Of a stretch of 64,000 bases of DNA, positions 2,650-30,189 are shown piece by piece. Origin of the DNA: Eunapius fragilis (Eukaryota; Porifera; Demospongiae; Spongillida; Spongillidae); contig OY811991.1 in assembly GCA_963681505.1 (NCBI GenBank), forward strand, positions 3,048,671 to 3,112,670. Reading direction: 5' to 3'. The first letter of the stretch is position 1; the number at the start of each line of letters is the position of its first letter. Below the pieces are notes generated by a model. That model saw only the letters and a program-made list of their open reading frames with translations, was not told the DNA's origin and did no database searches. The position numbers and the translations under genes are program-made.

Positions 2650-3987
2650 TCAACACATACAAGTAACATTGTTCCCAATGTGTGATGCCAGACACCCTCT
2701 ACCTTGAGTAGTCCAAGATTGCCTTGCTATCGAGATGGGTGCTACAAATGCAGCGTTTATGGCATAAGAGCTGTCCCCATGCACTAACACGTCGGCCCCG
2801 CTCAGGATCAGGAAGTCCACCCACACAGATTTTTCATCGTGATTGTCGCTGCCCCCAGCAAAATGGAAAGGGGTAAATGAAGCAGTCCGAGTCCTATTCC
2901 CATACTTCTGCATGGCCCACTCTTTTGTCACTGTGGAGTCCGTTGCAAGATAAACCAGCGCGTTTGGACCAATCAGGTAATCTGCTAACCTATGACTGTA
3001 GCCCAATATACAGGACCATGCTGATTCATCTTCAAATAGCTTCCAGTTTTTGAGGCTCCAAAGGTAGTTCCATTTCTCTTCGGCGGGGGTCCCCTTGAAC
3101 CCTGTCCTCAGGTGCACTGCCAGGTAGGGATGTCTGTCAATGCCAAGTGCCCTTTTAACGCTGCCCACGTGGTCCAATAACTCGCTCCTGAACTTGAACA
3201 GGTAATTGAAGACGGCGTGGTTCAGCTGCACCCACGGCTGGCTGGCCTCGACGGTGAAACGACCCATATCGCCTATGAGGCGCAGCAGCATCGAGTACCA
3301 CAGGGAGCTCTGGGTGTAGTACACCCCTTCGGCCCTGCCCCTCGCCAAGATGGACTTGACGCCGAGCTTATCGAAGCCGTTGTCAATGGAGGAACCCGTG
3401 TCCATCAAGGACTCGTCGCAGAGCAGCATGGGGTTTACGAACACATTTCCGTGGACGATCAAGTGCAGCTCGCTCCCGAATAGGTCCTTGCTGAACTCCT
3501 CGTACTTGTCCCTGCTCCACGCGAACGACGAAGTGGACGGGTACCTCTTGTGAGGGCACAGCCCGTCGACGCACATTCCGATGTTGCTACTGTTGGCGAC
3601 GTCCCAGTTGACTTGGTTTTGCTCGAGGTGCCTTGTGGCCTTGCGGTAGAAATCGTCCCAGTATATCGTGAAGACGCGGTCCGACATGAGGGCTATGAGG
3701 AAGAAGAAATGTACTCTGTACAGCTGGTCTCCGACTCCCCCACACATCCGGTCAGCGCACACCACCGTCAGCGTCCTCACCCCCCGGTCGAGGTCTTCCA
3801 CCCCGCGCCTATGGAGGGTTTTGTAGCGCTTCAGGGACGAGTTAAAGGTCGACCATGCCTCTCGCTCCGAGAGACGTGGGTGGTAGGCGGGCTTGGAGCG
3901 TAGCAGGTGCAAAGACAGACTGGTTATACCCACCGCAACAACGACGAGAATGAGCGCGGCTAGGCGTTTGTAGAAGATTATCTGCAT
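2650..3987 (-). CDS. Type II membrane fucosyltransferase-like protein, single exon
   Basis: The product is 445 aa. Residues 1-8 are a short basic cytoplasmic tail and about 9-29 form a hydrophobic signal anchor, the usual layout of a Golgi type II glycosyltransferase. Motifs fit the GT-B fucosyltransferase fold: a glycine-rich N-terminal motif (about 80-93, MCGGVGDQLYRVH), an HLRTGFKGT segment (292-300) at the place where related enzymes have the HxRR-type GDP-fucose-contacting motif, LATDS (347-351), and a C-terminal DFLILSGADVLVHGDSSYAI block (391-410) typical of this group. The likely role is transfer of fucose from GDP-fucose to a glycan or protein in the Golgi; the acceptor cannot be inferred. 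The start is the first ATG and gives a clean signal anchor. The frame is uninterrupted and GC-rich compared with its flanks. It is divergent from the transposon gene starting near 4338. The fold-level call is fairly safe; the exact family (FUT8-, POFUT- or GT37-like) is not. Confidence 0.7.
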   Translation of the reverse strand: MQIIFYKRLAALILVVVAVGITSLSLHLLRSKPAYHPRLSEREAWSTFNSSLKRYKTLHRRGVEDLDRGVRTLTVVCADRMCGGVGDQLYRVHFFFLIALMSDRVFTIYWDDFYRKATRHLEQNQVNWDVANSSNIGMCVDGLCPHKRYPSTSSFAWSRDKYEEFSKDLFGSELHLIVHGNVFVNPMLLCDESLMDTGSSIDNGFDKLGVKSILARGRAEGVYYTQSSLWYSMLLRLIGDMGRFTVEASQPWVQLNHAVFNYLFKFRSELLDHVGSVKRALGIDRHPYLAVHLRTGFKGTPAEEKWNYLWSLKNWKLFEDESAWSCILGYSHRLADYLIGPNALVYLATDSTVTKEWAMQKYGNRTRTASFTPFHFAGGSDNHDEKSVWVDFLILSGADVLVHGDSSYAINAAFVAPISIARQSWTTQGRGCLASHIGNNVTCMC

Positions 3988-4337
3988 CGTCTTGCCGTTT
4001 TCGGGGACAGGTATTAATTGCGCATCAATATATGTTGTTTGCGGCTGGAAACTGTGCTAATAATTAGATTATTACGGTATTGGTTTCGAAATGGTGAAAT
4101 GACTGCTAATTAAAGACATCCAATGTTTTCAAGCTGTCCATAACTCAGAAGAACCAGCTAATGTATAAATGATAACAACTGAGAGCACTAGACACAATTT
4201 CTTGACATGTTCATCCTATGCGCATACCTCAAATTGCACCATAATAGTATGCGCAGGCCGTTTTTATAAGAGCACGCGGCACATTATTACGAGGGGTAGT
4301 TACGAAACTCGGCAGCGTGGACTCTGTGTACTGATCT
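3988..4337. other. Spacer between fucosyltransferase-like gene and RAG1-N-like transposon
   Basis: This stretch holds the upstream region of the minus-strand gene and probably the 5' end of the transposon. I could not find terminal inverted repeats for the transposon by eye. Confidence 0.3.
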
Positions 4338-7300
4338 ATGAGGTAAGCATATAATACAAATGACCAGAAGGCGTGTGACAATCGGAATAAACAAGCCTAA
4401 AGCGCTGACGTATTCTCTATCCCATAAACAAGCCTAGCGTATTTTATGAATAATCGATAAAGTTCATGCGTACGCATTGTACATGAACATGATTATAGGA
4501 ATGAAGTACCACATCCAGCAAGTGCCTATGTATTGCAGAGTGTGTGGGCTGAGGCTAAAGAAGACCAGAGAGAAGCCAAATACTTGCTACCATTGCAAGG
4601 TTTTCTCAGCAGAGCTGAAAATTGCCTTTAGCATTGACACCTCAGGTGATGATGCCCGCAAAGTTTCTGCATCTGTTGCAAGCATTCTATGCAGAGAATC
4701 ATTAACTCAATCACAAAGGGGTTGCATTACAAGTGTGCTGTCATCCCATTTCAGTGGGTTAAGCATGAGGAGAAGGAATGCAAGGTAGAACTATTGCTTA
4801 ATCATATACATGTATTTGAAATAACAGTGTTCATGCAGGTGTGTGAGCACTTCAATATGTGTGCACATGGACATGTTAGGAGGTCGACAGTGTCTAGTGG
4901 ACGACAAGCAGGCATCACTCCTAACTTGCTCATTACCCATCTGTGGAAGATTGCCCCTCCTCCAAGTGTTCTACATGAGCCTTGTCCACTAACGGCAGCC
5001 AAGAACAGCATGTCAATCTTGAAGGAGCTGAAATGTGTATTATGTTCCAATATTCTCTCACAGCCACTGGAAATTGCATGCAGTTTACTTGTATGCATAG
5101 TTGATATGATAGCAGCCTCTGGTTCTGTGAACTGTCCTTTCTGCTCAGATGATGGCCCCCTTGTTCCATCTCATATCAGACCAGCATCGAATGCTATACT
5201 TCTGCTGCTATCAGAAGTTTTGGTTCATTGTACAAGTTGTGGTCGGGATGTTAAAGCTGTAGAATATGATGCACACGAATGTGTACCATTGCTTACACCT
5301 GGAGAAGAAAGACAAGCAGTGGAACTTCTGAAGAGGGCTGTATCCTGCAGTCCTGAAACAGGTGCCATACAGCTTGCTACAGGATTAGGAGGACAAGTTA
5401 AGCGCATTTAGTGATGGTATGGTACTATTAGTATTACATATTAACAATTTATCACTTAGCCAATCACATTCATACAACTTACTAAAGCCAGGCAACAAAC
5501 CTCAGCTGCCTGTGCAAAGACAGTAAAGACAAGGTGCTCTGAAATGCAGACTATACGCAGCATTATCAGTGGAGGAGATTCATCTGCCCTCATCCAGAGA
5601 GAAGTACTCACCCTCACTGATAAAGAGCGCCAATCTCTGTTGGATGAAGCAGGCATCTCATCTTCAAGAGAAATTGGGGCTGCTGAGGTATTGGCAATAA
5701 AGGCTGGGCTTGCCATGCCATGGAATAAATTGCGACTACTAAGACAGTATAGCTTTGCAATACAAAATAGTGCAGGTGGTATAACTCACTGTTTTTTTCA
5801 GGTGGCTGAAATCATCAGGGATTCGTCTTGCTGGGGAGGAGAGGATGCGACATATTTCAACCCAGATTGTGGGTGATAACTTGAAAGGCGAGATTGCCCC
5901 CTTTTCATTTCCACTTCCTTCTGGTGGCGAGGAGATAAGAGGAGCCCCTTTGGTGTACATTCCACATCTTGTGGACAAGGTTGCACAACTCTTAGATGGG
6001 AATGAAAGGTAAAGAGAAGTCGTGACAAATGGATTAATACTCTGATTAGATATGTTTTTAGGGCAGGCAGGCTTACCTGGCATGAAGGTTATATACCTCC
6101 TAGTGAGGTGTGGCTAAAGATAGGAGGAGATAAGGGTGGTGGAACATTCAAGATGAATTTTCAGTTTGTCAATGTTGCCACACCAAACTCAGTCCATAAC
6201 ACGTGTGTGTTTAGCTGCTTTGCGGCTGGTGATAGCATCACCAATATGGCACTTGACCGCTTTAAAGACCAGGTTGAACATCTGCATGGAATGAAATGGA
6301 GGTAGGAAATAAGGCTTACAAGCATTTTATTAATATGCAGGCAGTACACGACCAAGGTATTTGTGTGTGGTGACTATGAGTTTCTGTCCAAGATGTATGG
6401 CATATCTGGAGCCAGGGGTATGTGAAGAGGATGCTACCCTTGTCCATACTGCATCATCAAGAGTGAGAAGATGGCAATCTCTTTATCAGTCCGAGGACAT
6501 GCTGCTGAGAGGACCCTTGAGAGTATGCGTGCTGATCACCAGCGCTTTATCTCAGCAGAGGGAATCAAAAAAGATGCACAGATGTTTTATAACTGTATCT
6601 CACCTCCTTTTTTTGACATTCCAGTCTTGCAGGTAAATTCACCCAGCATATTGCTCAATGCATGTGCATGAATTACGTCATGAAAAATAGGTTTGCCCAC
6701 CTGGCCTCCACATAATGCTGGGCATATTTACCAAGCTATTCCATTTGCTGGAAGCTTTATGCTGTCAGCTGGACCTGGAGTTAGCATCACTTTCAACGGA
6801 GTTTGATTCATCCAACTTTTCTAAGTACAGTGAAGCACTTCAAATCCTTCCATCTCTCCAAGCGGAGCTTGAAGAGGCCTGGCAGTCACAGCAAGAACTG
6901 CAGAAATGGCAACCTATATGGCATTAATGAATAGTAACAGAAATCCTCTAGCCAAGGCTCTTCTGAAACAAGCTGCAGACAAAATGAAATCTGTCAAGTC
7001 ACTTGTAAGTTGCAATAAATATTTAAATGAGTAATTAATTAAAACATCTGCACCACTAGGAAGCCAAGGTTGTCAAATGCCAAGCTACAGGGGTTTTGTG
7101 AAAAAGAAGGGCCATTTGTCAAGACACTTGACAATGCTTTGCAATCCTTTGGAGTTCAAAGGCAGCAATATTTCAGTGGAGTATTTATTGGCAACCATGT
7201 CCATAAGGCACTGAAGGTAGAATTTTTTTATTATGCAGATAAAAATTCATATTACATGGCTACTTTTCTCAGCTACCCAATGTCAAGACCCTTTGTACAT

Positions 7301-7850
7301 CAATCTCACAAATGGCACAACAACAACTGCCCCGTCGATCTGATGAGGTAGTGGGAAAAGTTTCACAGTTTATTACAGCATTTTCCTTATTTGGTAACTG
7401 TCATAATGTTTGTGATCGTAACTTTATTGATGAGGCACATGCTCAAGCACTAGACAAGGTTAGTAACGACTTTTGTGCGATTTGTTTATAAAATTTGTCC
7501 TCCACGTAAATAAACAGGCTATTCTAGAGTTCTTTCTCTTCTATCGGGATACATTTCCAGAGGCAACAGTTCCAATTAAAATGCACCTTTTGGAAGATCA
7601 TGCTGTACAGTGGGCTAATTCAAACCATGTTGGCTTTGGCCTACTTGGTGAACAAGGTGCAGAGTCTATACATGCCAAGTTTAATCGGCTTGCCCTGGCA
7701 TTTGCGCCCATCAGAGACAGAGTGAAGAACCTACAGTGTATTTTAAAAGAACATCTCTTAAGCATTGAGACACAATTGCTAGCTGCCATCCCACCTCCCT
7801 CAAAGAGAATAAAGAGCAATACTTCCAGTAGCTCTGCAGAACCTCAATAA
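4338..7850 (+). pseudogene. N-RAG-TP-like transposon gene: RAG1 N-terminal zinc/RING region plus transposase-like C-terminal part
   Basis: Predicted exons: 4338-4342 (ATG-AG), 4539-4784, 4839 to about 5400, about 5510-5746, 5802-6008, about 6062-6301, 6341-6632, 6691-7004, 7060-7216, 7273-7458 and 7518-7850, with short GT-AG introns. The N-terminal part matches the vertebrate RAG1 N-terminal region in order: RVCGLRLKK with a second CxxC (CYHC), an AFSIDTSGDD segment, PQSFCICC, then HEEKECKVC created by the 4785-4838 splice. Next is a RING-like LKCVLC...C-x4-C block (about 5032-5150), and then HCTSCG...EYDAHEC. After this comes a part with no RAG1-core resemblance: RQWLKSSGIRLAG, GGDKGGGTFKMNFQ (near 6125), a CPYC pair (near 6440), and a C-terminal MHLLEDHAVQW...GEQGAESIHAKFN block. 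Damage includes a frameshift near 4650 between the first zinc pair and PQSFC, loss of the last RING cysteine (CIVD), a TGA near 6423, and a frameshift near 6900. The stop overlaps an AATAAA at 7846-7851. The homology call is strong; exon edges are predictions. Confidence 0.75.
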
Positions 7851-8569
7851 ATTTGTATTTTAACAATATACACGTCTGAATGCGGCTGCTGGGTCATGCA
7901 CAGAGCAGTTGTTCTTTGAATTAATTTGTACTATCTCAAATAACCTCCGAAAAATATTGTCTATAATATCATCCCGTCTTTTATTCTTTAGAGACACCTC
8001 CCCTACATGACAAAAATGGCGGATTTTCGAACGCTCAACGTATAGTTCAGAAAAGGCGTCATCGTTAGTATTTAATACAACCTACAGTGTACTTTACCGC
8101 TGTATTTGTTGTTTGGCCTGTCTCACTCCCTGAATGCCATACTCCTTTTTTGTATACACTATGTCGAAACACGCCGTGCGTAAGTCGATTGGTTGCGACA
8201 ATCCATGCTAACAGTTAGCAACGTAAGGCCGGGCGATTTATGCTTTGCTATAACAGTCAGAGGTGTTCGCCACTTCTAGTATGTTTTTTAGGTATATTGT
8301 GCATTTGGTGTCTTGGTGCAAAGCACATTCTAAGTGACATCGGTTGTCTGGTTCGTTGCTATGGGACAACGTAATATTTCGGGCGTAGGGTCAACTTTCC
8401 ACGCGTTCAATGGGAGCAAACCACCGTGAATAACTGTGGTCTTAATGCTTGTTACGTAACCGCGCGCGCGCGTCAAACACACAAAAACATATAATTGCGT
8501 CGGCACGTGGTTTGGTGCCGAAATCATATTCACAGTTAATTTCCACGCGCCCTGGCTGCTTCATTATAG
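7851..8569. other. Transposon 3' flank and AT/GC-mixed spacer
   Basis: No gene is recognised. An alternating (cg) run lies at about 8460-8471, and a small palindromic patch, ggcacgtggtttggtgcc, near 8501. A donor-like gaactggaag/gtaagc near 8604 parallels the exon-1 donor of the element at 4338 and probably belongs to the second, degraded element. Confidence 0.35.
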
Positions 8570-9264
8570 GCATCCAATGTTTACAATTGAGGCTGAACTG
8601 GAAGGTAAGCGATGATCAGGAGACATGTAGCTACAAGTATTAGCAATACAAAAGTGGTAACGAATTTTCTATCACCACAAACAAGCTGAACGAAATACCT
8701 TGTGGTTTTGTCCTAATAGATTGCTACCACAACCAACATTTTAGAGTGTGTGGGCAGAGGCCAGGGCAAAGAACTATATAAGTGCAAAGCATTCTCAGCT
8801 GGCGCTGAAAATAGTTTACATTGACACATCTGGGAATGATGTTCTGCATGTACATGTACTGAAAGCTCTCAATGGAGAGACCACCACAAAGGGAGTGCAT
8901 CACAAATGTGCAGTGATCCAATTTTGAGTGATAAAGCATACATATCAAGAATGAATACACATGCATTACATCATGGTGTCCAGGTATGCTGTGGTCAGCA
9001 GTTGATAGGGTTCGTCAGGCAGGCATTTTGCCTAATTTACTAATAGCTTATCTTGAAAAGATTGCCCTTCCTCCAGTCCTCTTATGTGAGCCTAGACTAC
9101 CTTTGGCAAGCGTGAACAACCGGTTGATGCTAAAGGCGCTGAAGTGTGCACCGTGCTTCAACATCCTCTCGCAGCCGCAGTGTGGTGCACTGATGTGCGT
9201 CACGTGCCTCCAGGAGTGGAAAGCAGCATATCCCTATGGCGTGCCAAAGGTATACACTGGCTAA
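8570..9264 (+). pseudogene. Second, degraded RAG1-N-like transposon fragment
   Basis: The order of segments follows the element at 4338: a broken zinc-pair exon (about 8730-8935, with frameshifts), then after an acceptor at about 8981 a segment RQAGILPNLLIAYLEKIA and a RING-like LKCAPCFNILSQPQCGALMC followed by VTC. Here the third CxxC of the RING is intact (C-x4-C-x2-C), unlike in the element at 4338. Amino-acid similarity to the first element is roughly 60 percent by eye, so this is a separate subfamily and not a duplicate. The coding part stops at about 9250, where sequence of the neighbouring repeat family begins. No transposase-like part is visible downstream. Confidence 0.65.
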
Positions 9265-9370
9265 TGTGTCCATTCCATTAGGTAAATATACCCCTGCATA
9301 CCTCAGCGCATCCTCCACATTGGGTTATATGCCTCCGCATTGGGTATATGTATCAATTTGAGTATACACC

Positions 9371-9657
9371 CAGGGGCGGATGCAGGGTTTTGGGGCGGGG
9401 GGGGGGGGGGGGGGGGTGTGTGAAGTGATTTTAATAACGCGGTTTTACCCCCCCCCCCCCCCCCCCCCCCCCCCAAAGAAGTCGTGAATTTAATAGCACG
9501 GTTTTGCGGGATACCCTACTCCACCCCCCACCCCCCTCCCCTCCCCTATCGTTACACGTATAGCACACGTAAGAAGCCGTGAATTTTTAATAACATAGGT
9601 TTTGCGGGGGGGGGGGGGGGGGGGTATACCCTACTCACCCCCCTAAATCCGCCCCTG
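9371..9657. mobile_element. hAT-like MITE with CAGGGGCGGAT termini
   Basis: The element starts with caggggcggatgcaggg and ends with the inverse, ccctaaatccgcccctg. A 5-bp direct repeat acacc abuts both ends (9366-9370 and 9658-9662). The interior is dominated by poly-G and poly-C runs and has no coding capacity. The CAGGGG-type ends resemble hAT termini, but an 8-bp target duplication is not clear, so the superfamily is tentative. Confidence 0.6.
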
Positions 9658-9889
9658 ACACCTCCGCGTTACGGATCCAGGGGTGAGGATATGTGTGGGG
9701 GCGTGGTGCGGGGCACTCTCCCCCGCCTCTTCAAGAATGTATGCGCTATAATAATTGCATGCACGTCTCAAGAAATGTACAAGCTATACAGAGCTTCTGG
9801 GGCTGAGCCTCTTGGATGCTATACTACACCCACGGAGACCCTATGGCTTAGACGAGGATCCGCCGCTCGGTATGTACATTTCGCATTTG

Positions 9890-10008
9890 GTGGTCCCTAG
9901 TCTCGTACCCAGACCCACGCCACAGCAGCGGGTGGATTACATCACGTAGCGGTGATGTAATCCACCCGCTGCTGTGGCGTGGGTCTGGGTACGAGACTAG
10001 GTGGTCCC
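9890..10008. mobile_element. Perfect-palindrome MITE (49-bp arms) with about 8-bp target duplication
   Basis: Arms 9897-9945 and 9952-10000 are perfect reverse complements around a 6-base centre (gtagcg). The flanks carry gtggtccc at 9890-9897 and again at 10001-10008; because the last base overlaps the palindrome, the duplication can be read as 7 or 8 bp. An 8-bp duplication would fit a hAT-type transposase. Degenerate relatives of one arm occur at about 13784-13840 and 15743-15795. Confidence 0.75.
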
Positions 10009-10179
10009 GTGCTCAGACCCACACCATCTCGAGTGTCTTGACGCCCCCAATATATATGTGTCGTTTCCTTGCGTCACGCTGTCACAGCTATGGAAGTTGT
10101 GCGGGGCGTCCCATTTGAACGTAGAGAAAGAAAGCCCGCACTTTGTGATAGCTATTGGTCTGGGGACCAGATGAGCATT

Positions 10180-10233
10180 GCATGCAGGAACGGGCGTGAC
10201 CAAAACCAAAACCAGCTATGCATGGATTTCGAT
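10180..10233 (+). repeat. Left 54-bp terminal inverted repeat
   Basis: It runs from gcatgcaggaacgggcgtg to tgcatggatttcgat and is the exact reverse complement of 15204-15257. Confidence 0.9.
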
Positions 10234-10382
10234 GAGCCATCATTTTTTATTTCCTTTTTTTTTTGTTGCATGAAATTATTTAATACTGCTCCCCATTACT
10301 TCTCCTTTATCTAGCAATGGTTACCCCATACATACATGCATACCTCAGTGCATCCTCGGGATTCAGTATATACCTTGGGCTG

Positions 10383-12435
10383 ATGTGTTGCATACACTGA
10401 ACTGGTCTACTGCATGTACTGGACTGATGTGTTTTGTGCACTGGGCTGATGTGATGCATGTACTGGACTGGTGTGTTGTATGTACTGGACTGGCGCGTTG
10501 AATGCACTGGTGTTGAATGTACTGGTTGTACATATTGGGCTGATGTGTTGTATGTATTGGTTGTATGTACTGGACTGATGTGTTGTATGTACTGGACTGG
10601 TGTGTTGATGTACTGGTATTGAACGTACTAGACTGATATATGTTTTATGCACTGGTCTGCTATGTTGTACATATTGGACTGATGTGTTGTATGTATTGGT
10701 TGTATGTACTGGACTGATGTGTTGTATGTACTGGACTGGTGTGTTGATGTACTGGACTGATGTGTTGATGTACTGGACTGGTGTTTTGATGTACTGGACT
10801 GGTGTGTTGATGTACTGGACTGGAGTGTTGATGTACTGGACTGATGTGTTGATGTACTGGACTGGTGTGTTGATGTACTGGACTGGTGTGTTGATGTACT
10901 GGACTGATGTGTTGATGTACTGGACTGGTGTGTTGATGTACTGGACTGGTGTGTTGATGTACTGGACTGGTGTGTTGATGTACTGGACTGATGTGTTGAT
11001 GTACTGGACTGGTGTGTTGATGTACTGGACTGGTGAGTTGTATGTACTGGACTGGTGTGCTGATGTACTGGACTGGTGTGTTGATGTACTGGACTGATGT
11101 GTTGATGTACTGGACTGGTGTGCTGATGTACTGGACTGGTGTGTTGATGTACTGGACTGATGTGTTGATGTACTGGACTGGTGTGATGTATGTACTGGAC
11201 TGATGTATTGCATTTACTGGACTGGTGTGTTGATGTACTGGACTGATGTGTTGATGTACTGGACTGGTGTGTTGATGTACTGGACTGGTGTGTTGATGTA
11301 CTGGACTGGTGTGTTGATGTACTGGACTGATGTGTTGATGTACTGGACTGGTGTGTTGATGTACTGGACTGGTGAGTTGTATGTACTGGACTGGTGTGCT
11401 GATGTACTGGACTGGTGTGTTGATGTACTGGACTGATGTGTTGATGTACTGGACTGGTGTGATGTATGTACTGGACTGATGTATTGCATTTACTGGACTG
11501 ATGTGTTGATGTACTGGACTGGTGTGTTGATGTACTGGACTGGTGTGTTGATGTACTGGACTGGTGTGTTGATGTACTGGACTGGTGTGTTGATGTACTG
11601 GACTGGTGTGTTGATGTACTGGACCGGTGTGTTGATGTACTGGACTGGTGTGTTGATGTACTGGACTGGACTGGTGTGTTGATGTACTGGACTGGTGTGT
11701 TGATGTACTGGACTGGTGTGTTGATGTACTGGACTGGTGTGTTGATGTACTGGACTGGTGTGTTGATGTACTGGACCGGTGTGTTGATGTACTGGACTGG
11801 TGTGTTGATGTACTGGACTGGTGTGTTGATGTACTGGACCGGTGTGTTGTATGTACTGGACTGGTGTGTTGATGTACTGGACCGGTGTGTTGATGTACTG
11901 GACTGGTGTGTTGATGTACTGGACTGGTGTGTTGATGTACTGGACTGGTGTGTTGATGTACTGGACTGGTGTGTTGATGTACTGGACTGGTGTGTTGATG
12001 TACTGGACTGGTGTGTTGATGTACTGGACTGGTGTGTTGATGTACTGGACTGGTGTGTTGATGTACTGGACTGGTGTGTTGATGTACTGGACTGGTGTGT
12101 TGATGTACTGGACTGGTGTGTTGATGTACTGGACTGGTGTGTTGATGTACTGGACTGGTGTGTTGATGTACTGGACTGGTGTGTTGATGTACTGGACTGG
12201 TGTGTTGCATGTACTGGACTGGTGTGTTGATGTACTGGACTGGTGTGTTGATGTACTGGACTGGTGTGTTGATGTACTGGACTGGTGTGTTGATGTACTG
12301 GACTGGTGTGTTGATGTACTGGACTGGTGTGTTGATGTACTGGACTGGTGTATTGCATGTACTGGACTGGTGTAATGTGTGTACATCACATATGTGTTTG
12401 CATGGTTTGTTGCATGTACTGGACTGGAGTGTAGC
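10383..12435. repeat. 21-bp minisatellite (sat-2), about 97 units
   Basis: The unit is gatgtactggactggtgtgt plus t (21 bp). Variants include gactgat for gactggt and gaccggt, plus a higher-order repeat of about 280 bp: two long blocks ending in gagttgtatgtactgg (near 11034 and 11370) and in gatgtattgcatttactgg (near 11200 and 11480). The period is a multiple of 3, so long repetitive frames of 180-590 codons are open on both strands. They are not gene evidence. Confidence 0.97.
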
Positions 12436-12840
12436 CAAGGGGCATCAGGATATCAGTGGTGGCTATGAGGTAAGGATCATGTAGTGGAGGCTGTGGGACA
12501 TGAGCATATACATGTATACTAGGGTCCACTACATTACATGCTAATGTCTCATAGTACTCACTATCTTTATATCCCATGACTATTGCTGATCATCTTTACA
12601 TGCAGTTATAAATAATGGCGCGCCAAAAGTATATCAGCCCCAATGTGTACCGCATTGGGTATATACCTCCATTCATTAGGTATATATACCCCTCATACTA
12701 TAGCATCCCATTGCTCCTTCTTTATCTACCAATGGTGCTCCCTTCCTCCTGGACTGGTGTCTTGCATGTACTGGATTGGTGCAGGTATGTAGTGGAAGCC
12801 ATGGGACATGACCATGTACTTACATGTACATAAATGGGGC

Positions 12841-13110
12841 GTCTCCTCTACATGGTCCTGTCCCATAGCCTTCACTACATGGTCCTGTCCCATAGCCTTC
12901 ACGACATGGTCCTGTCCTATAGCCTTCACTACATGGTCCTGTCCCATAGCCTCCTCTACATGGTCCTGTCCCATAGCCTTCACTACATGGTCCTGTCCCA
13001 TAGCCTTCACTACATGGTCCTGTCCCATAGCCTTCACTACATGGTCCTGTCCCATAGCCTTCACGACATGGTCCTGTCCCATAGCCTTCACTACATGGTC
13101 CTGTCTCAGA
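12841..13110. repeat. 27-bp minisatellite (sat-3), about 10 units
   Basis: The unit contains ccttcactacatggtcctgt followed by cccatag. It aligns with the sat-1 unit at 20 of 27 positions, so the two arrays share an ancestor. Single dispersed units of the same family, in the opposite orientation (gtagtggaggccatgggac), occur at about 12483, 12780, 13190 and 13435. Confidence 0.95.
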
Positions 13111-13230
13111 ACCCTGTCATTTTTTAAACCTCTCAATGGTGCAGTCTACATTTGAGCATATGTAGTGGAGACATGAGATGTCAACATGAGCATGTAGTGG
13201 AGGCCATGGGACTCTTCTGGATGTGCTTTA

Positions 13231-13238
13231 GATGTGTG

Positions 13239-13291
<53 letters not shown>
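13231..13291. repeat. (GT)n microsatellite
   Basis: An uninterrupted gt dinucleotide run of roughly 30 units in the centre of the foldback-like element. Confidence 0.97.
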
Positions 13292-13293
<2 letters not shown>

Positions 13294-13543
13294 ATATGTA
13301 CCTAAAATAAAGGTGCACATGGCCAAATATCCAAACATCAATTCTAACAATAAATTATAACTGCATGTAAATATGATCAGCAATATTCATGGGATATAAA
13401 GATTGTGAGTACTATGGGACAGTAACATGTAATGGAGTATGGGACATGAGTATGTAGTGGGCCCTAGTACATATGCTCATGTCCCACGGCCTCCACTACT
13501 TGATCCTTGCTTCATAGCCTCTATTAATATTCTGATGCCCTTG

Positions 13544-13719
13544 GCAACACACCAGTCCAGTACATGCAACACACCAGTCCAGTACATGCAACACACCAGT
13601 CCAGTAGATGCAACAAACCAGTCCAGTAGATGCAACACACCAGTCCAGTACATACAACACACCAGTCCAGTACATGCAACACACCAGACCAGTACATACA
13701 TCACACCAGCCCAGTACAG
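13544..13719. repeat. sat-2 in inverted orientation, first block
   Basis: Units of caacacaccagtccagtaca are the reverse complement of sat-2, about 8 copies with cagtagatg variants. This is the inner part of the right arm of the foldback-like element. Confidence 0.93.
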
Positions 13720-13783
13720 GGTTGTTGTCAGACTTTCGAAGGGGGTGGGTCAGATATGTGTGAATGAGTTTGCTTAGAGAGAC

Positions 13784-13850
13784 CTAGTCATGGTTCCAGA
13801 CCCAATGGACACAGCTGTGGATGGACTACAGGGAGGTCGTTAGCCCCCAT
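13784..13850 (+). mobile_element. Degenerate relative of the palindromic MITE arm
   Basis: cctagtcatggttccagacc, then caatggacacagctgtggat and ggactac, follow the arm of the 9897 palindrome with substitutions. It interrupts the inverted sat-2 array. Confidence 0.5.
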
Positions 13851-13883
13851 CAATTCCCTCCCTCCTCCCTCTCACTGTGGCCC

Positions 13884-14200
13884 TGCAGTACAATACATAA
13901 AACACACCAGCCCAGTACATACAACACACCAGTCCAGTACATGCAACACACCAGTCCAGTACATGCAACACACCAGTCCAGTACATAGTACAGTATATGC
14001 AACACATCAGCCCAGTACATTCGACAAACCAGTCCAGTACACATATCACACCAGTCCAGTACATACATCAGTCCAATACACCAGCCCAGTACATACAACA
14101 CACCAGTCCAGTACATGCATCACATCAGCCCAGTGCGTAAAACATATCAGTCCAGTATATGCAGTAGACCAGTTCAGTGTATGCAACACATCTGCCCACT
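13884..14200. repeat. sat-2 in inverted orientation, second block
   Basis: About 13 degenerate inverted sat-2 units (caccagtccagtacatgcaa). The outer units match the unusual outer units of the left arm (cagtagaccagttcagtgta against the complement of tacactgaactggtctactg), so the two arms are homologous and not independently expanded. Confidence 0.9.
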
Positions 14201-14475
14201 CAATGGGAAGGTATATATACTGAATCCAAAGGATGCACTGAGGTATGCAGAGTGTGTATGACCCTTGGTTGAGGGGGGAGGGGGGGGGGGGCAACCATTG
14301 CTAGATAAAGGAGAAGTAATGGGGAGCAGTATAACGGTACACTGGGTAAATATTGAACTAATAGCTTACGCTGATGCAACACATGAATAAAAAATAGTAT
14401 CACACGTTTCTTTGTTGTTGTATTTACGAGGGAGCTTTTGCATTTCAACCCCCTCCTCCCTGCCACTCCCCCCTC

Positions 14476-14706
14476 GAATATGTCCACCCCTGGTATATGT
14501 CCACCCCTGGTATATGTCCACCCCTGGTATATGTCCACCCCTGGTATATGTCCACCCCTGGTATATGTCCACCCCTGGTATATGTCCACCCCTGGTATAT
14601 GTCCACCCCTGGTATATGTCCACCCCTGCACTGCTACATGATGTGTGCTCATTTGATATGTCCACCCCTGGTATATGTCCACCCCTGGTATATGTCCACC
14701 CCTGCA
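14476..14706. repeat. 17-bp minisatellite, about 11 units in two blocks
   Basis: The unit is tccacccctggtatatg. Nine units are followed by tgcactgctacatgatgtgt, then three more units and a repeat of the same tail. It lies in the part of the right side that has no left-arm counterpart. Confidence 0.95.
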
Positions 14707-14715
14707 CTACTACAT

Positions 14716-15203
14716 GATGTGTGCTCATTTGAGCACAATGAATGGCCTCACATGGCACAACTCGTTCAGCTCTGCAATTTGTACAGCTTTTCTCACCTCA
14801 ACCATATCAGTGGATAAGGGTACAAAATCTTTTTAGCCTCTGCGTACCTGGCATAGTTCCAATCATTTTATGCCTTTCCTCAAGTACCTTGACCTTTGTC
14901 ATGTTCTTGCAGTAGTGTTGCAAGCCAAGGTGTATTCCCTTGACGTGGCTAACTGCAACTTAATTCGTAGAGCTGCAGTGCTGCATCATAATGCAAATAA
15001 TGGAATGGCAATGGTGCTGGACCGACTTGGAACAACCACATTGTGCAGTGAATGCCTTCTACAATGCAACAAAGGGTGCATGCATGTGCCACACAATATG
15101 CTATGAATGCCTCCTTAGTTGTTAATGTATCAAAGAGGTGTGCATGCCACACTGTGCTAGCATTCATAACATACATGTATTGTGACACAGCAATGCTTAC
15201 CCA
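14716..15203. other. Unassigned sequence within the foldback-like region
   Basis: No known gene is recognised. A short open frame at 14870-15106 on the plus strand has many Cys and Leu residues but no motif I can name. Confidence 0.3.
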
Positions 15204-15257
15204 ATCGAAATCCATGCATAGCTGGTTTTGGTTTTGGTCACGCCCGTTCCTGCATGC
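15204..15257 (-). repeat. Right 54-bp terminal inverted repeat
   Basis: Exact reverse complement of 10180-10233. Confidence 0.9.
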
Positions 15258-15742
15258 ATGATCAGAAATTGTCTTTTTATAGTGCTTATAATATTCAATG
15301 TAACATGAATGCAATGCCATATTGCTATATAGCTACACTTATAAGGTTATAGAAAATAGCTGGCATCTTTACTGCCTGCAACCTGGATGCCGCTTTACTG
15401 TTGCAGTATTCAGACTGTTAGCTGGCGCCGCACACAAGTACGAACCAGTTGAGTCCCAGACAGCACAAGTATAATTGGTGGGAAGAGGGCGATCGTTGAT
15501 ACAGCATACAGCATAACCTATTTATAGCAACTAGGCAAAACCTGTCTGACTCCAAACCAAACTGGTTTGACAACTTAAAACCAGTTCCTAACACTAAACC
15601 AGTTTCTAACAATGTACAGAACTCAGGTGCTACTGTAGACAATGGCCTAGACCTTACATGTACAACACCTAATATATCACAACTGTGTAGAGAGCCTCCA
15701 CAACATCCTCATGCATACACTGGCAGAGCTAAGGAGGTCCCG

Positions 15743-15800
15743 GCCTAGTCTCAGAACCAGACCCAACAGACGCAGCTGTGGATCGATTACACCATGCAGA
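15743..15800 (+). mobile_element. Degenerate relative of the palindromic MITE arm
   Basis: cctagtctcagaaccagacc, then caacagacgcagctgtggat and cgattacacca, match one arm of the 9897 palindrome with a few substitutions; the second arm is missing. Confidence 0.5.
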
Positions 15801-16221
15801 GATTGAAACAGCAATGTTCTTGATCACCACAATAGTAACATGCAGGCTCATTTTGCATTTATAGCCCTATCATTTTAATGTGATGTAACAAGACCTCTAG
15901 TAAAGCTGCAGCATACAGGCACTAGAAGTAGTTGAATTATCATTGTGACCTCTTTCCCAAGTGTACTTTAATAACTGCTTGAGTATAGATACCTGTTTGA
16001 TATCTAAATCTAATCAAGCTAGGTATCAGTAATTGAGTAGCAATGGGCTTCATTTCTAAGCTGAGTATCTTGAGAATCATACATCCTGGCCCGTAGCAAG
16101 GGCAAAAAACTGGGGTGGCCAAAAATCGGACCATTATCAGCCGGCTAGAATCCAACGCTGGCCTTCCTCATTTTCCTCACAGATGTGGTTTCATTATAGA
16201 AGTGGTCATTTCAATGCAACT

Positions 16222-16272
16222 ATATATATAATTATATATATATAATATATATATAAATATATATATTTGGTC
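16222..16272. repeat. (TA)n-rich microsatellite
   Basis: Alternating ta/at run with short interruptions. Confidence 0.9.
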
Positions 16273-16429
16273 TAAGTGTATGTTGTGTACTGTATTGTGT
16301 TCGATTATTAGCATACTCAACGTACTAGCACCAGATAACATAGTTTGCCTACACACTTGTTATTGAATTTTCACTAATTAAATCATTTATGAATAAAGTA
16401 TTTTTACTGCTCAAAAAGTGGACAAGAAC

Positions 16430-17560
16430 TAGGGAGATCTGATAGAGTTCAGCACAAAGTCAGAATGGATTATGTTGATGTCATATGGCAGCAAGTGTAG
16501 AGAACTGGCTCAGCCCAATGTGAAGAAACGAGGAAGCTGGGTGAAATGGTGCTGCATAAGGATGTCATCTTACCCTCATCCAATCCCCTGTTGTGCTAGC
16601 CGGAAAAAAGTCTGCACGCTTCTGTGTCAATTACCCTAGATGGGTGCTTACCCTCTACCGAGGTCAATGACATGCTGGACACCCTGGCTGGATCACAGCT
16701 GCTTACTACATTGGTGGTTATTGGAGAGATGAAACCAGAGGACAAAGAGAAGACTGCATTCTGAACCTTGGAGGGGACCCTGCAATGTACCTGAAACCTT
16801 CCATGTATGGTGTACTGAAGGGACTGCAGTTTATCTAGTTCATCTGGATGACATGGGTTTGTCTTGGCTCAACCCCAATCTCAGTGTGATATACAACAAA
16901 TCCTGGGATGAGCCAGTTTTTATTGCCAGTTCATAAAGGACTTCACCATTGAAACAGTGCCAGTGCTTGGAGCCCAGGAATGTGGTTCTAGGGAGACTGT
17001 CCACCATGAGCTGTTCAGGTAATCATGCTCAGCCAATATTTATTGGCCAAAATCAAGATGGAGTGATTATTATGGCCAAATTCCATTCTGTCCTGGTCCA
17101 ACATGTTGCATGCCTCCGTGGTTCATGATCTTGCTTCCTTCCTCCATGAACATTGACAAATCATATTTGGAGACTGACATAACACGAGTACGCATTACAC
17201 TACTTCTTATGACCTTGGGGGTCACACGATTGTCTGATTGCCTCACTAATTTTCTTGATTTCTTTTTTCTTGCAAAAAAATCTATCAAATGATATGTAGC
17301 AATAAAAATAATTGGATCCATAATTATATAAAGAATTTTGGCTGAAAGATCCTGGCCAGGATTCATTGGCAAGATCTTGACCACATCCAAGGATTAAAAA
17401 AAAATGGATCCGCGTTTTTTACGAAACCCATTCTGGAAGAGCATTCAAGAGCTACGTGGCGGTATGACTGGTGGCGATTTTGAAGAGGCGAAGACAATGG
17501 CCCGGATTACAGCTCGTTTCTATTGACCTGGATGTGGTGGATGCACCGAATTATTTGGTA
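16430..17560 (+). pseudogene. Decayed Gypsy-type (Ty3) pol fragment
   Basis: Read in shifting frames, pieces resemble reverse transcriptase of LTR retroelements in the expected order: LPSSNPLLC with an arginine-Phe-Cys-like stretch (about 16570-16640), DMLDTLAGSQLLTTL (about 16669-16713) and PEDKEKTAF (about 16734-16760). An RNase H-like start follows near 16945. Near 17500 a segment EEAKTMARITARFYWPG (with one stop) resembles the integrase zinc-binding region. Stops and frameshifts are frequent and no LTRs were identified. This is a pattern judgement without alignment. Confidence 0.4.
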
Positions 17561-17739
17561 CATACTGTTTGCCTTCGTTGCTCCAGAATTAGTGATGGAC
17601 ATTAAAGATGGAGCTGGGCTCCCATGTCACATTGTCTATATTGCTCAATCCCTTAATTGCTTCTTTTTTATTTTGTGTGTTAATTAATGTACTTTGTTTA
17701 TTGTACGTGTTCTGAGGTGCATTGTTATTGCAATATTTA

Positions 17740-20700
17740 ATAAAGCCGTATGGGGTATGGAGCACAGAAGATCCCTGCAAGTCATGTGGGGCACGGAGCA
17801 CTGAGATATGGTGCTTATCTGCAGAAGCTTCATACTGGCTGAGAAATCTGCTTCCAGAAGTTCTTTCGCAAAATTCTGCGCAACAATGTGTGCATGTATT
17901 ACAAGAGACCAGCAATGAACGGTAAGGGCACAGAAGATCCCTGCAAGTCATATGGGGCATGGAGCACAGAAGATCCCTGCAAGTCGTATGGGGTATGGAG
18001 CACAGAAGATCCTATGGAGCATGGAGCACAGATGATCCCTGCAAGTCGTATGGGGTATGGAGCACAGATGATCCCTGCAAGTCGTATGGGGTATGGAGCA
18101 CAGAAGATCCCTGCAAGTCGTATGGGGCATGGAGCACAGAAGATCCCTGCAAGTCGTATGAGGCATGGAGCACAGAAGATCCCTGCAAGTCGTATGGAGC
18201 ATGGAGCACAGAAGATCCCTGCAAGTCGTATGGGGCATGGAGCACACAAGATCCCTGCAAGTCGTATGGGGTATGGAGCACAGAAGATCCCTGCAAGTTG
18301 TATGGGGCATGGAGCACAGAAGATCCCTGCAAGTCGTATGGGGCATGGAGCACAGAAGATCCTATGGAGCATGGAGCACAGATGATCCCTGCAAGTCGTA
18401 TGGGGCATGGAGCACAGAAGATCCCTGCAAGTCGTATGGGGTATGGAGCACAGAAGATCCCTGCAAGTCGTATGGGGCATGGAGCACAGATGATCCCTGC
18501 AAATCGTATGGGGTATGGAGCACAGGAGATCCCTGCAAATCGTATGGGGCATGGAGCACAGAAGATTCCTGCAAGTCGTATGGGACATGGAGCACAGAAG
18601 ATCCCTGCAAGTCGTATGGAGCATGGAGCACAGAAGATCCCTGCAAGTCCTATGGAGCATGGAGCACAGAAGATCCCTGCAAGTTGTATGGGGCATGGAG
18701 CACAGAAGATCCCTGCAATTTGTATGGAGCATGGAGCACAGAAGATCCCTGCAAGTTGTATGGGGCATGGAGCACAGAAGATCCCTGCAAGTTGTATGGG
18801 ACATGGAGCACAGAAGATCCTATGGAGCATGGAGCACAGATGATCCCTGCAAGTTGTATGAGGTATGGAGCACAGAAGATCCCTGCAAGTTGTATGGGGT
18901 ATGGAGCACAGAAGATCCTTGCAAGTTGTATGGAGCATGGAGCACAGAAGATCCCTGCAAGTTGTATGGGGCATGGAGCACAGAAGATCCCTGCAAGTTG
19001 TATGGGGCATGGAGCACAGAAGATCCTATGGAGCATGGAGCACAGATGATCCCTGCAAGTCGTATGGGGTATGGAGCACAGAAGATCCTATGGAGCATGG
19101 AGCACAGATGATCCCTGCAAGTTGTATGAGGTATGGAGCACAGAAGATCCCTGCAAGTTGTATGGGGCATGGAGCACAGAAGATCCTATGGGGCATGGAG
19201 CACAGAAGATCCCTGCAAGTTGTATGGGGCATGGAGCACAGAAGATACCTGCAAGTTGTATGGAGCATGGAGCACAGAAGATCCCTGCAAGTTGTATGGG
19301 GCATGGAGCACAGAAGATCCCTGCAAGTTGTATGGGGCATGGAGCACAGAAGATCCCTGCAAGTTGTATGGAGCATGGAGCACAGAAGATCCCTGCAAGT
19401 TGTATGGGGCATGGAGCACAGAAGATCCCTGCAAGTTGTATGGGGCATGGAGCACAGAAGATCCTATGGGGCATGGAGCACAGAAGATCCCTGCAAGTTG
19501 TATGGGGCATGGAGCACAGAAGATACCTGCAAGTTGTATGGAGCATGGAGCACAGATGATCCCTGCAAGTTGTATGAGGTATGGAGCACAGAAGATCCCT
19601 GCAAGTTGTATGGGGCATGGAGCACAGAAGATCCTATGGAGCATGGAGCACAGATGATCCCTGCAAGTCGTATGGGGTATGGAGCACAGAAGATCCTATG
19701 GAGCATGGAGCACAGATGATCCCTGCAAATTGTATGAGGTATGGAGCACAGAAGATCCCTGCAAGTTGTATGGGGCATGGAGCACAGAAGATCCTATGGG
19801 GCATGGAGCACAGATGATCCCTGCAAGTTGTATGGGGCATGGAGCACAGAAGATCCCTGCAAGTTGTATGGGGCATGGAGCACAGAAGATCCTATGGGGC
19901 ATGGAGCACAGAAGATCCCTGCAAGTCGTATGGGGTATGGAGCACAGAAGATCCTATGGAGCATGGAGCACAGATGATCCCTGCAAGTTGTATGAGGTAT
20001 GGAGCAAAGAAGATCCCTGCAATTTGTATGGGGTATGAAGCACAGAAGATCCCTGCAAGTCGTATGGGGTATGGAGCACGGAAGATCTTATGGAGCATGG
20101 AGCACAGATGATCCCTGCAAGTTGTATGAGGTATGGAGCACAGAAGATCCCTGCAAGTTGTATGGGGTATGGAGCACAGAAGATCCCTGCAAGTTGTATG
20201 GAGCATGGAGCACAGAAGATCCCTGCAAGTTGTATGGGGCATGGAGCACAGAAGATCCCTGCAAGTTGTATGGGGCATGGAGCACAGAAGATCCCTGCAA
20301 GTTGTATGGGGCATGGAGCACAGAAGATCCCTGCAAGTTGTATGGGGTATGGAGCACAGGAGATCCCTGCAAGTTGTATGGGGTATGGAGCACAGAAGAT
20401 CCCTGCAAGTTGTATGGGGCATGGAGCACAGAAGATCCTATGGGGCATGGAGCACAGAAGATTCCTGCAAGTCGTATGGGACATGGAGCACAGAAGATGG
20501 AGCATGGAGCACAGAAGATCCCTGCAAGTCCTATGGAGCATGGAGCACAGAAGATCCCTGCAAGTTGTATGAGGTATGGAGCACAGAAGATCCCTGCAAG
20601 TTGTATGGGGTAATGGAGCACAGAAGATCCCTGCAAGTTGTATGGAGCATGGAGCACAGAAGATCCCTGCAAGTTGTATGGGGCATGGAGCACAGAAGAT

Positions 20701-21405
20701 CCCTGCAAGTTGTATGGGGCATGGAGCACAGAAGATCCTATGGAGCATGGAGCACAGAAGATCCCTGCAAGTTGTATGGGGCATGGAGCACAGAAGATCC
20801 CTGCAAGTTGTATGGGGTATGGAGCACAGAAGATCCCTGCAAGTTGTATGGGGCATGGAGCACAGAAGATCCCTGCAAGTTGTATGGGGTATGGAGCACA
20901 GGAGATCCCTGCAAGTTGTATGGGGTATGGAGCACAGAAGATCCCTGCAAGTTGTATGGGGCATGGAGCACAGAAGATCCCTGCAAATCGTATGGGGCAT
21001 GGAGCACAGAAGATTCCTGCAAGTCGTATGGGACATGGAGCACAGAAGATCCCTGCAAGTCGTATGGAGCATGGAGCACAGAAGATCCCTGCAAGTCCTA
21101 TGGAGCATGGAGCACAGAAGATCCCTGCAAGTCCTATGGAGCATGGAGCACAGAAGATCCCTGCAAGTTGTATGAGGTATGGAGCACAGAAGATCCCTGC
21201 AAGTTGTATGGGGCATGGAGCACAGAAGATCCCTGCAAGTTGTATGGGGTATGGAGCACAGGAGATCCCTGCAAGTTGTATGGGGCATGGAGCACAGAAG
21301 ATCCCTGCAAGTTGTATGGGGCATGGAGCACAGGAGATCCCTGCAAGTTGTATGGGGTATGGAGCACAGGAGATCCCTGCAAGTCATATGGGGTATGGAG
21401 CACAG
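17740..21405. repeat. 36-bp minisatellite (sat-4), about 100 units
   Basis: The main unit is gatccctgcaagttgtatgg followed by ggcatggagcacagaa (36 bp). Single-base variants (cgta/tgta, ggtatg/gcatg, gagcatg) are distributed in blocks. A 26-bp short variant, gatcctatggagcatggagc plus acagat, lacks about 10 bp and recurs roughly every 100-360 bp, which gives higher-order structure. The 26-bp units shift frame, so overlapping repetitive frames of 100-500 codons exist on both strands. A separate unit lies upstream at about 17750-17800. Confidence 0.97.
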
Positions 21406-21509
21406 AAGCTCAAGACTGAGGCTTTCTCGCGCCTTGCCACTCAGACTGAACGTGTGAAAATCAATAGAATTACTCAAGCGGGAAATGTGCACACACTTTC
21501 ACATGCAGC

Positions 21510-22286
21510 TACACAGGGTATTTGCAAAAGAGCGCAACGCTTTTAAATGAATATAATTCCTTAATAGGATTGTCACTCTAAATGAATTTATGAATGTACA
21601 ATAACCATGTACGTTTAGTCAAATACGAACCCCATTGTTACAATTTAGCAGTTCAAAAGATAAAATCAAATAGCTTGTAATCAACTAAATTGACAAACAA
21701 TTTACGACAACTTTTAATTAATACGTGATTTGCGTTATTAAAACTCAAAATTAATAAAAATGTTGTGGTCATATAGCTTTTTCAAGTTTGATTTGTTGTT
21801 TTGAATTTTAACTAGTAAAATGCCAATCAAGTTTCATACTTTTTCAAAGCCTCGTCAGCATTATTCTGCAGTTATACCATTAAATAATCCATTACCAAAT
21901 CAAAGATGGTAAAATTATTTACCACATACTTCAACCTTAATAACTTTAAAGTAAATGGTCTTAAATGTTAATAACTCACTATATTGAACCTAGTAACTTG
22001 AAATCAGTACTGTTCCACCCCATATCCAGATCTTGTGTTACTTATTATTAGTTATTAAAATCAATTATCTTAAACCGCAATATTGAATTACCGTTAATAG
22101 AGGGCTTTGAATATTTTGATTTATGAGGGTTTTGATACAGTTACTTAACCGCTTATGATAATTGAAATCCAATTGGATTATTGGCCTAACTACTGCAACA
22201 TATGTTAAAGAAATCTAATTAATTTCAATCCTGCAAGAGTTATAGGGATTTTAAAGCAATGTGTTCTTTCGCAAACACCCTGTGTA
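21510..22286. mobile_element. TIR element, about 777 bp, TA-flanked (left assembly copy)
   Basis: Same sequence as 38461-39237; see that entry. Confidence 0.55.
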
Positions 22287-22980
22287 TATTAGGCAGCACC
22301 GATAAAGTTAAAATTGACTAATAAGTATGCCCCGATTTTGCAGCGATTTGGACTCTCCTGCAGAAGGATATTTAAGCGGGCTTTTTTTTACATGTACGAA
22401 GAGGATCGACCTATACACAGCGAATAAACACGTCAAATCAACTGGTTATTGAATCACAATTGATTTGACAATAAAATCGAACGCACTTGATTTTAAAACA
22501 TGCGTTGATTTAACAATTGATTTAAAATCCTTTGTGAAATCAATAATTGCGTTATTCTGCTGCCCCATATTTGTATTTGTTACATTACAGGGTGTCCAAG
22601 AATGACCCGACAGTGTTAACGTTTGAAGCGAAATGCCTTAGGATAAAAATTATCTATCTATATCCGTTTAGTCAAATACGAGCCGCATTATTAGAATTCG
22701 ATTTATCTTTAACAGTTCAAAAGATAGCTTGCAATTAATTAATTTGACACGAAAATTTTTAATTAATAAAAAGATTTATAAACTGCAGAGTAACCTTGAT
22801 GAATTTTTGAAGCATTGGCATTTTAATATTCAAACAACAAATCAAACTTGATATTCACTACTTTGATTTTTAATAACTCACCATTACATAATCTAATACA
22901 AAATGAAATGGTGTTTTTTATTTTAAAACGACCCTGGAATCTCGGCGGACTTACTTCACGAAGCAGGTTTCACCGCTTGC

Positions 22981-23483
22981 GTGGATTGCAAATTAGTCCT
23001 TGTTACCATTAAGCGGTCCCGGTGCACGTCCTGCTTGATTGACAGCCGCCATTCATCCAAGTCCAATGGCAGCAGCTGTGAGTCCTTGTTTAATAATAGC
23101 GGTTCGATACTTGGTAGTTCGCTACCGCCCTCCGAGCCACCTTTATGTTATAATACGTCGTCACCTGGGCCATCCCGATCGTCGGTTTCGCATGGGACAC
23201 CCTCATCACCGCAGCCCTCTCCTAGCACTTCATTCACACCTTCTTCTTCGGCAGTGCCAGCGCATACACTCCACATAGAACCTTCTGTGCCTCCATCACC
23301 TGTCCCAGTATCGCCCGAGCCTTTGCAAGTGGAGTCGGGAAGTGATCGAGCTATCCTCGCAATGATATCGCCTCAGGTACCAATAGTCCGACCTCTACAC
23401 AGGAAGCAGTGCATTGTAGCTGACTGCCACGAGCTAATTGCTCCAACCATGTGGCGTTCACATATGGGCCTTCACGCACGGGG
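22981..23483 (+). CDS. Retrotransposon ORF, 5' part cut by the assembly gap (same locus as 39932-43315)
   Basis: Identical to the first 503 bp of the ORF at 39932. It runs into the gap just after a C2H2-like segment (C-x4-C...H-x3-H). Translated past 23683 it would join unrelated sequence, so no protein should be predicted across the gap. Confidence 0.85.
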
Positions 23484-26214: not shown

Positions 26215-26320
26215 TGTGTCCATTCCATTAGGTAAATATACCCCTGCATACCTCAGCGCATCCTCCACATTGGGTTATATGCCTCCGCATTGGGTATATG
26301 TATCAATTTGAGTATACACC

Positions 26321-26395
26321 CAGGGGCGGATGCAGGGTTTTGGGGCGGGGGGGGGGGGGGGGGGGGTGTGTGAAGTGATTTAATAACGCGGTTTT

Positions 26396-26429
<34 letters not shown>

Positions 26430-26608
26430 AGAAGTCGTGAATTTAATAGCACGGTTTTGCGGGATACCCTACTCCACCCCCCACCCCCCTCCCCTCCCCT
26501 ATCGTTACACGTATAGCACACGTAAGAAGCCGTGAATTTTTAATAACATAGGTTTTGCGGGGGGGGGGGGGGGGGTATACCCTACTCACCCCCCTAAATC
26601 CGCCCCTG
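26321..26608. mobile_element. hAT-like MITE (right assembly copy)
   Basis: Same as 9371-9657 except for homopolymer lengths. Confidence 0.6.
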
Positions 26609-30100: not shown

Positions 30101-30189
30101 ATTTGAGCATATGTAGTGGAGACATGAGATGTCAACATGAGCATGTAGTGGAGGCCATGGGACTCTTCTGGATGTGCTTTAGATGTGTG

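Follow-up and report, generated by a model that had tools for sequence, protein, structure and literature searches.

Chapaev transposons that combine a CHAPA domain with a RING finger go back to Kapitonov and Jurka 2007, as cited in PMC4411706; the RING occurs in two Chapaev subgroups. According to the argument set out in the same source (Kapitonov and Koonin 2015, PMC4411706), the CHAPA and the RAG1-type RING seen in Chapaev were fused to the core before the Chapaev, Transib and RAG lineages split. A second described system is N-RAG-TP of Aplysia californica, a transposon whose protein resembles the RAG1 N-terminus (as outlined in PMC8355894 and PMC2996935), and a rival model, given in PMC8355894 with reference to Panchin and Moroz, has a Transib recombining with an N-RAG-TP element. 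It is disputed between these accounts whether the N-terminal third of RAG1, the vertebrate antibody-gene recombinase, was inherited with its core (PMC4411706) or taken from another transposon (PMC8355894). What the element described here has in common with N-RAG-TP, as that is described, is a transposon-encoded protein with a RAG1 N-terminal-like part; N-RAG-TP might, at a guess, be related to Chapaev, and no Aplysia protein is among the matches listed in the homologue searches. Chapaev elements with RAG1 N-terminal parts are already published, and the sponge element is a further case of that architecture. In the literature on Chapaev, N-RAG-TP and the origin of RAG1 that fell within the scope of the search (subscription papers, Repbase and supplements lie outside it), neither such sponge elements nor a comparison between the divergence of the N-terminus and that of the core was found.

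The DNA analysed (the window) is a stretch of 64,000 nucleotides from the freshwater sponge Eunapius fragilis (G000:C21:3048671-3112670). It contains a dead copy of what is almost certainly an autonomous cut-and-paste Chapaev transposon, whose single transposase gene fuses an N-terminal region homologous to that of RAG1 to a DUF1280 DDE core. The features of this copy are the following.

4027..4030, no strand: target site duplication AATA, left copy; the same 4 bp stand at the right border, and duplications are found at the homologous borders of relatives
4031..8428, plus strand: Chapaev DNA transposon, whole element, decayed; its borders are common to sister copies
4483..4784, plus strand: exon 1, CHAPA zinc-binding part, homologue of the RAG1 N-terminus; a 10-bp deletion at 4659/4660 disrupts the frame
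4839..5396, plus strand: exon 2, homologous to the RAG1 ZDD (1RMD): rest of the C-x2-C, RING (C3HC4) and C2H2-type finger
5520..5746, plus strand: exon 3, linker followed by the first part of the core; its 5' border is uncertain
5802..6008, plus strand: exon 4
6062..6301, plus strand: exon 5, DUF1280 match (E 1e-11); the codon at 6129-6131 encodes the candidate first catalytic Asp (in GGDKGG)
6341..6632, plus strand: exon 6; candidate second Asp (CGDYEF) at 6372-6374, and a C-x2-C
6691..7004, plus strand: exon 7
7060..7216, plus strand: exon 8
7273..7458, plus strand: exon 9
7518..7850, plus strand: last exon, with KMHLLEDH and GEQGAES; a candidate catalytic Glu is encoded at 7662-7664, and the stop codon lies at 7848-7850
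8429..8432, no strand: target site duplication AATA, right copy; the same 4 bp stand at the left border

In this copy the left end is decayed, while the right end (..AAACCACCGTG) is retained and AATA is present on both sides. The ends of L021, a better preserved relative, read CACGGTTGTTTGC on one side and CACGGTGGTTTGC from the opposite side; they start with CACGGT and form a terminal inverted repeat in which 12 of the 13 end bases match. Terminal inverted repeats beginning with CA(C) are a Chapaev feature, and Chapaev target duplications are 4 bp long. Perfect 4-bp duplications flank 14 of 15 related copies at homologous borders (12 close copies and three of a second subfamily, with L036-L040 outside the sample), the exception being L029, which has none. 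The RSS heptamer is CACAGTG, and the right end of the window copy (8413-8428), read inward, starts with CACGGTG, one base off; this likeness may be chance within a clade of CA..TG ends, as 5'-CA..TG-3' termini are attributed to most of this transposase clade in PMC12730594.

The family is large: exon 2 has at least 150 matches genome-wide (the best 150 of 602 candidates scored, certain copies counting twice) and DUF1280 at least 131 (from the best 150 of 168 candidates scored); these profile counts cover the 219-Mb assembly of 24 contigs and are all lower bounds. When nine close copies were aligned to the window copy over their whole length (L023-L025, with inserts or gaps, were left out), eight were 96.5-98.0% identical in ungapped columns and the internally rearranged L031 was 85.8% identical. 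L031 and L032 both lack the same single base pair close to the beginning of exon 1, yet their 4-bp duplications differ (AATT and ATTT), so a defective copy may have moved in trans.

Several further observations concern the surroundings of the element. A tandem segmental duplication of 16.75 kb (99.9% identity) occupies positions 6736-23483 and 23684-40434 of the window; the 3' part of the Chapaev is present again in its second copy, from 23684 onwards, with the last exon at 24466-24798. Behind the first element, at about 8608-9231 and again in the duplicate at 25945-26181, lies a second, degenerate CHAPA and RING fragment, which belongs to a different Chapaev subfamily and shares 72.5% identity with Ephydatia muelleri P0001 along 80 residues. 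A 468-aa open frame on the minus strand (2650-4056), with the Chapaev directly upstream, gives a weak and non-significant O-FucT match (E 0.066). Long tandem repeat arrays with units of 27 bp and 21/22 bp flank the element at about 199-1540 and 10376-14260.

The nine modelled introns of the window copy are all GT..AG (9/9). L021 and L034 have a pair of exons in place of its exon 6; the intron that separates them, 58 bp long in L021, is truncated in the window. L021 has eleven exons and is open throughout except for one frameshift, which its 945-aa read-through crosses. L034, of the second subfamily, gives 937 codons with no stop when spliced by projection from L021; nine of its ten projected introns are GT..AG and the exon 2/3 acceptor is GG. 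The exon 2/3 junction is uncertain because two splices fit and the projected acceptor of L034 is not AG. The original prediction had the region begin at 4338; that position is not an exon start in our model, in which exon 1 has its in-frame ATG at 4483 and the first two exons span 4483-4784 and 4839-5396. An extra non-coding exon may lie upstream of 4483.

The window copy is dead and non-functional. Ten bp present in 12/12 aligned sisters are missing between 4659 and 4660, the RING is damaged near 5088-5103, and splicing with the modelled exons leaves 35 stops and additional frameshifts. The codons for both candidate Asp residues and for the Glu are retained. The Asp of GGDKGG is presumably catalytic, and the candidate Glu aligns with the RAG1 Glu counted as residue 962 in a weak hhalign match. 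Chapaev transposases have C-x2-C and H-x(3-4)-H between the second Asp and the Glu; by eye, CPYC after the second Asp and KMHLLEDH before the Glu are candidates for these two motifs.

The first two exons of L021 read CRVCG, SIDTSSDD..QPESFCICCKHSM, W.KH...C-K-V-C, RING and CTSCG..YDAHEC. Residues 102-382 of mouse RAG1 (6oem, 21wb and 1RMD) present CRIC/CRVC, HPxxFCxxC, W.PH...C-x2-C, RING and C2H2. Most of the motifs named in the original prediction are indeed found in the window copy, namely a first CxxC pair (CRVC), a segment ending in AFSIDTSGDD, an H...C-x2-C created by the 4784/4839 splice, where GT/AG joins H-E-E-K-E-C-K to V-C, and a final CTSCG...DAHEC finger. The RING-like block is also there, with one Cys lost in the window copy, since LVCTKCIVDM of L021 reads LVCIVDM at that place. 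However, PQSFCICC, which had been taken as the counterpart of HPxxFCxxC, has to be rejected as a genuine motif: it lies in another frame than AFSIDTSGDD and is an artefact of the 10-bp deletion absent in 12/12 sisters. At this site L021 reads ...IDTSSDDARIQPESFCICCKHSM, that is QPESFC, and L034 reads ...VNIHPEMFCKQCQLSM, that is HPEMFC, with the exact HPxxFCxxC layout. The related copies thus keep QPESFC or HPEMFC as well as H...C-x2-C, and the condition that would have refuted the original prediction is answered in its favour by them.

A profile of nine N-termini (A4) finds residues 102-382 of RAG1 first, with an E-value of 2.1e-22, its best non-RAG chain being a double-RING chimera (2.2e-12); the part before the RING finds the RAG1 chain 21wb, which stops short of the RING, at 8.8e-11. 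In hhalign, A4 and mouse RAG1 align with probability 99.05 and E 2.1e-18 along 236 columns at 23% identity. A profile of five N-termini from the lineage of the window copy (A3) matches full-length mouse RAG1 at 2.1e-10, the alignment extending from upstream of HPxxFC through the final finger. Searched alone, the L021 N-terminus has RAG1 1RMD as its best PDB match (2e-7), and eleven RAG1 sequences rank above the first non-RAG RING (3.3e-5) among solved structures. L042, a single-exon relative in the same genome, matches 21wb at 8.3e-7 and PF12560 at 8.6e-12 on its own.

PF12560 (RAG1_imp_bd) has at least 76 matches in the genome (136 scored), 74 of them above its curated cut-off and some only with neighbours in frame, and it was above cut-off in 3/8 and 5/7 sequences of the two sets scanned. 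The strong RAG1 matches were obtained with profiles, with other subfamilies and by searching the L021 N-terminus among solved structures: the exon 1 frame of the window alone gives E 0.056 with PF12560, exon 1 of L021 gives 2.6e-4, below cut-off, and the whole 945-aa read-through gives 0.39. Exon 2 of the window alone matched no RING family at E ≤1, and PF00097 is just above its cut-off in exon 2 of L021. As far as sequence comparison can tell, the first two exons are homologous to the N-terminal region of RAG1 along some 240 residues, beyond mere RING likeness. The central claim of the original prediction, a RAG1 N-terminal region (zinc-binding part, RING and C2H2) inside a transposon gene of a non-bilaterian, is therefore upheld by significant matches that go beyond a generic RING.

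The catalytic core is of another kind than that of RAG1. DUF1280, a family of Chapaev transposases as described in PMC3985635, matches the 945-aa read-through of L021 at E 3e-12. The sponge family thus presents a DUF1280-type DDE transposase core (DUF1280/PF06918), a CHAPA domain and a RING (with a C2H2), CA..TG ends and small target duplications in common with Chapaevs that carry CHAPA and RING. It differs from known Chapaevs in belonging to a freshwater sponge, where it forms several subfamilies including the open second subfamily of L034. The element is assigned to Chapaev because of DUF1280, the ends and the 4-bp duplications. Among the 62 matches listed for the 945-aa protein, 55 are EMCRGX_ [Ephydatia muelleri] or Em... 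entries, and L034 is separated from E. muelleri P0001 by 0.12 changes per column in the N-terminal tree. Chapaev-like proteins of Patiria, Acanthaster, Strongylocentrotus, Lytechinus, Hydra and ENA contigs (P0046-P0049, P0053, P0061, P0052 and P0074) have cores about 27-36% identical to the sponge cores; a RING is present in P0046, P0061, P0052 and P0074, and a CHAPA with HPxxxCxxC in P0052.

The core would bind the CACGGT ends and its DDE triad would cut them, with insertion at a target site staggered by 4 bp. A non-catalytic role is presumed for the N-terminal region, which by analogy with RAG1 may act in dimerisation, partner binding and perhaps ubiquitin ligation. It is likely that this N-terminal module is of the same kind as the one that became the N-terminus of RAG1.

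The genome also contains a second repeated family, of Transib type as judged from one copy. The only genome-wide match to PF12940, the RAG1 core (E 0.0066, below cut-off), belongs to this family, which has at least 94 matches (108 scored), and was rejected as a RAG1 core. One copy, L052 (L052 1-2801, G000:C6:6030100-6032900), has an 807-aa open frame whose best solved structure is 6pqn, moth HzTransib (2.3e-27), followed by 6b40, RAG1L of amphioxus. It has no Pfam match at E ≤1, hence no recognised CHAPA or RING. By its sequence, L052 is a Transib-type element without a RAG1-like N-terminus.

The origin of the RAG1 N-terminus, as distinct from the identity of the sponge element, can be approached through the divergence of the two halves, for which fusion and co-inheritance predict different ratios. 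In Chapaev proteins with both parts, N-terminal identity is lower than core identity in 35/35 pairs (of the 66 pairs possible among 12 sequences, those with more than 80 N-terminal and more than 200 core columns were kept), and the N-terminal tree distance exceeds the core distance in 45/45 pairs, with ratios of 1.2-3.0. Between L021 and L034, dN/dS is 0.23 for the N-terminal part and 0.13 for the core, so that both halves are under purifying selection in this one pair of subfamilies. The N-terminus is the faster-evolving part, because identity, tree distances and dN/dS agree.

A sponge N-terminal profile of ten sequences (L021 and nine E. muelleri proteins) scores 161, 150 and 135 bits against three L042-type proteins, 70 against P0052, 58 against the RAG1 N-terminus, and 41, 22 and 11 against sea-star P0046, P0074 and Hydra P0061. 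P0052 is the sole full-length comparison, because the N-termini of P0046, P0061 and P0074 are partial, which lowers their scores; P0047-P0049 have next to no N-terminus as annotated. The core profile scores 311-535 bits against 7/7 non-sponge or ENA-contig Chapaevs, and the Chapaev core aligns with that of P0052 at E 1.3e-99 in hhalign, whereas a nine-sequence Chapaev core profile found no RAG1 or Transib chain among solved structures at E ≤10. As a positive control, L052 as a single sequence finds 6b40 at 2.7e-7. Scores and detection are preferred here because tree distances saturate beyond roughly 3 changes per site; the N-terminal tree does not place RAG1 either inside or outside Chapaev, and P0061, unusual in composition, forms a long branch in it.

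The RAG1 N-terminus thus scores within the range of Chapaev N-termini from other phyla while the cores are nearly unalignable, which we read as discordant histories of the two parts and hence as favouring module exchange. On balance we favour the view that the two halves of RAG1 have different histories, a Chapaev-type CHAPA-RING-C2H2 module and a Transib-type core having come together long after the cores had diverged; the comparison covers one RAG1 sequence and includes saturated distances, and the transfer may have run in either direction.

The co-inheritance proposed by Kapitonov and Koonin in 2015, with CHAPA, RING and core fused in the ancestor of Chapaev, Transib and RAG and the N-terminus lost in Transib, is a serious possibility that we consider short of probable. 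It can draw on the published domain argument (in PMC4411706) and on a superfamily tree that groups RAG1 and DUF1280 in one clade (as given in PMC3985635). The cores also share remote motifs: the Chapaev core profile has a weak match to the mouse RAG1 core (hhalign probability 2.8, P 0.016) in a stretch of 55 columns that includes the candidate catalytic Glu, and it is collinear with the sponge Transib L052 along 154 columns, again weakly (P 0.0026). However, had RAG1 kept its two parts together, the core ought to be as easy to detect as the N-terminus, which it is not, and the measured ratio favours exchange.

That the element is RAG-like in the sense of RAGL, with a RAG1 core, or is a host gene domesticated from such an element, is very improbable. 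The RAG1-type N-terminal region is present, and cnidarian RAGL gene pairs have been reported (as mentioned in PMC7204232), but the core is DUF1280 where that of RAG1 is of Transib type, no RAG1/Transib-type catalytic core was found by PF12940 in the 945-aa protein at E ≤1, and copy number together with target duplications shows a mobile element.

Convergence, or a generic RING with zinc ligands, is likewise very improbable and was rejected: although the RING part also draws matches from numerous generic RING chains, the three modules stand in identical order, 21wb is matched with no RING in it, and permuting the RAG1 N-terminus with every Cys and His fixed speaks against this reading. None of 1000 such shuffles exceeded 20.3 bits against A4 (real RAG1, 89.7), and the highest of 999 scored against A3 reached 16.0 (real, 48.0). 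With the CHAPA part, the highest values were 19.6 bits of 997 scored against A4 (real, 45.3) and 11.7 of 987 scored against A3 (real, 22.6). Across the family, the RAG1-type N-terminal layout goes well beyond what chance would give.

The two kinds of transposon meet at one place. A Transib of 4,073 bp (L045/L053, G000:C5:3301466-3305538), with broken frame, 12-bp perfect ends starting with CACAGTG (CACAGTGGTTTA) and a 5-bp duplication CAGCC, is nested within a Chapaev gene between the CHAPA exon and the RING, in the same orientation; the empty site is seen in three relatives. One CHAPA-Transib pair within 15 kb was observed and 0.5 expected (76 x 48 places, 48 of the 94 Transib-family matches being used). 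The single nesting gives no sign of functional fusion, because it is within chance expectation, and shows only that the two kinds of transposon meet.

For the dispute on the origin of RAG1, the sponge genome provides outgroup data, because it has the N-terminal module in several lineages, each time with a Chapaev core, next to a separate Transib-type family. If module exchange is true, a sponge that has both transposons would hold the two halves of RAG1 still apart, and the nested Transib would picture how their joining may have started.
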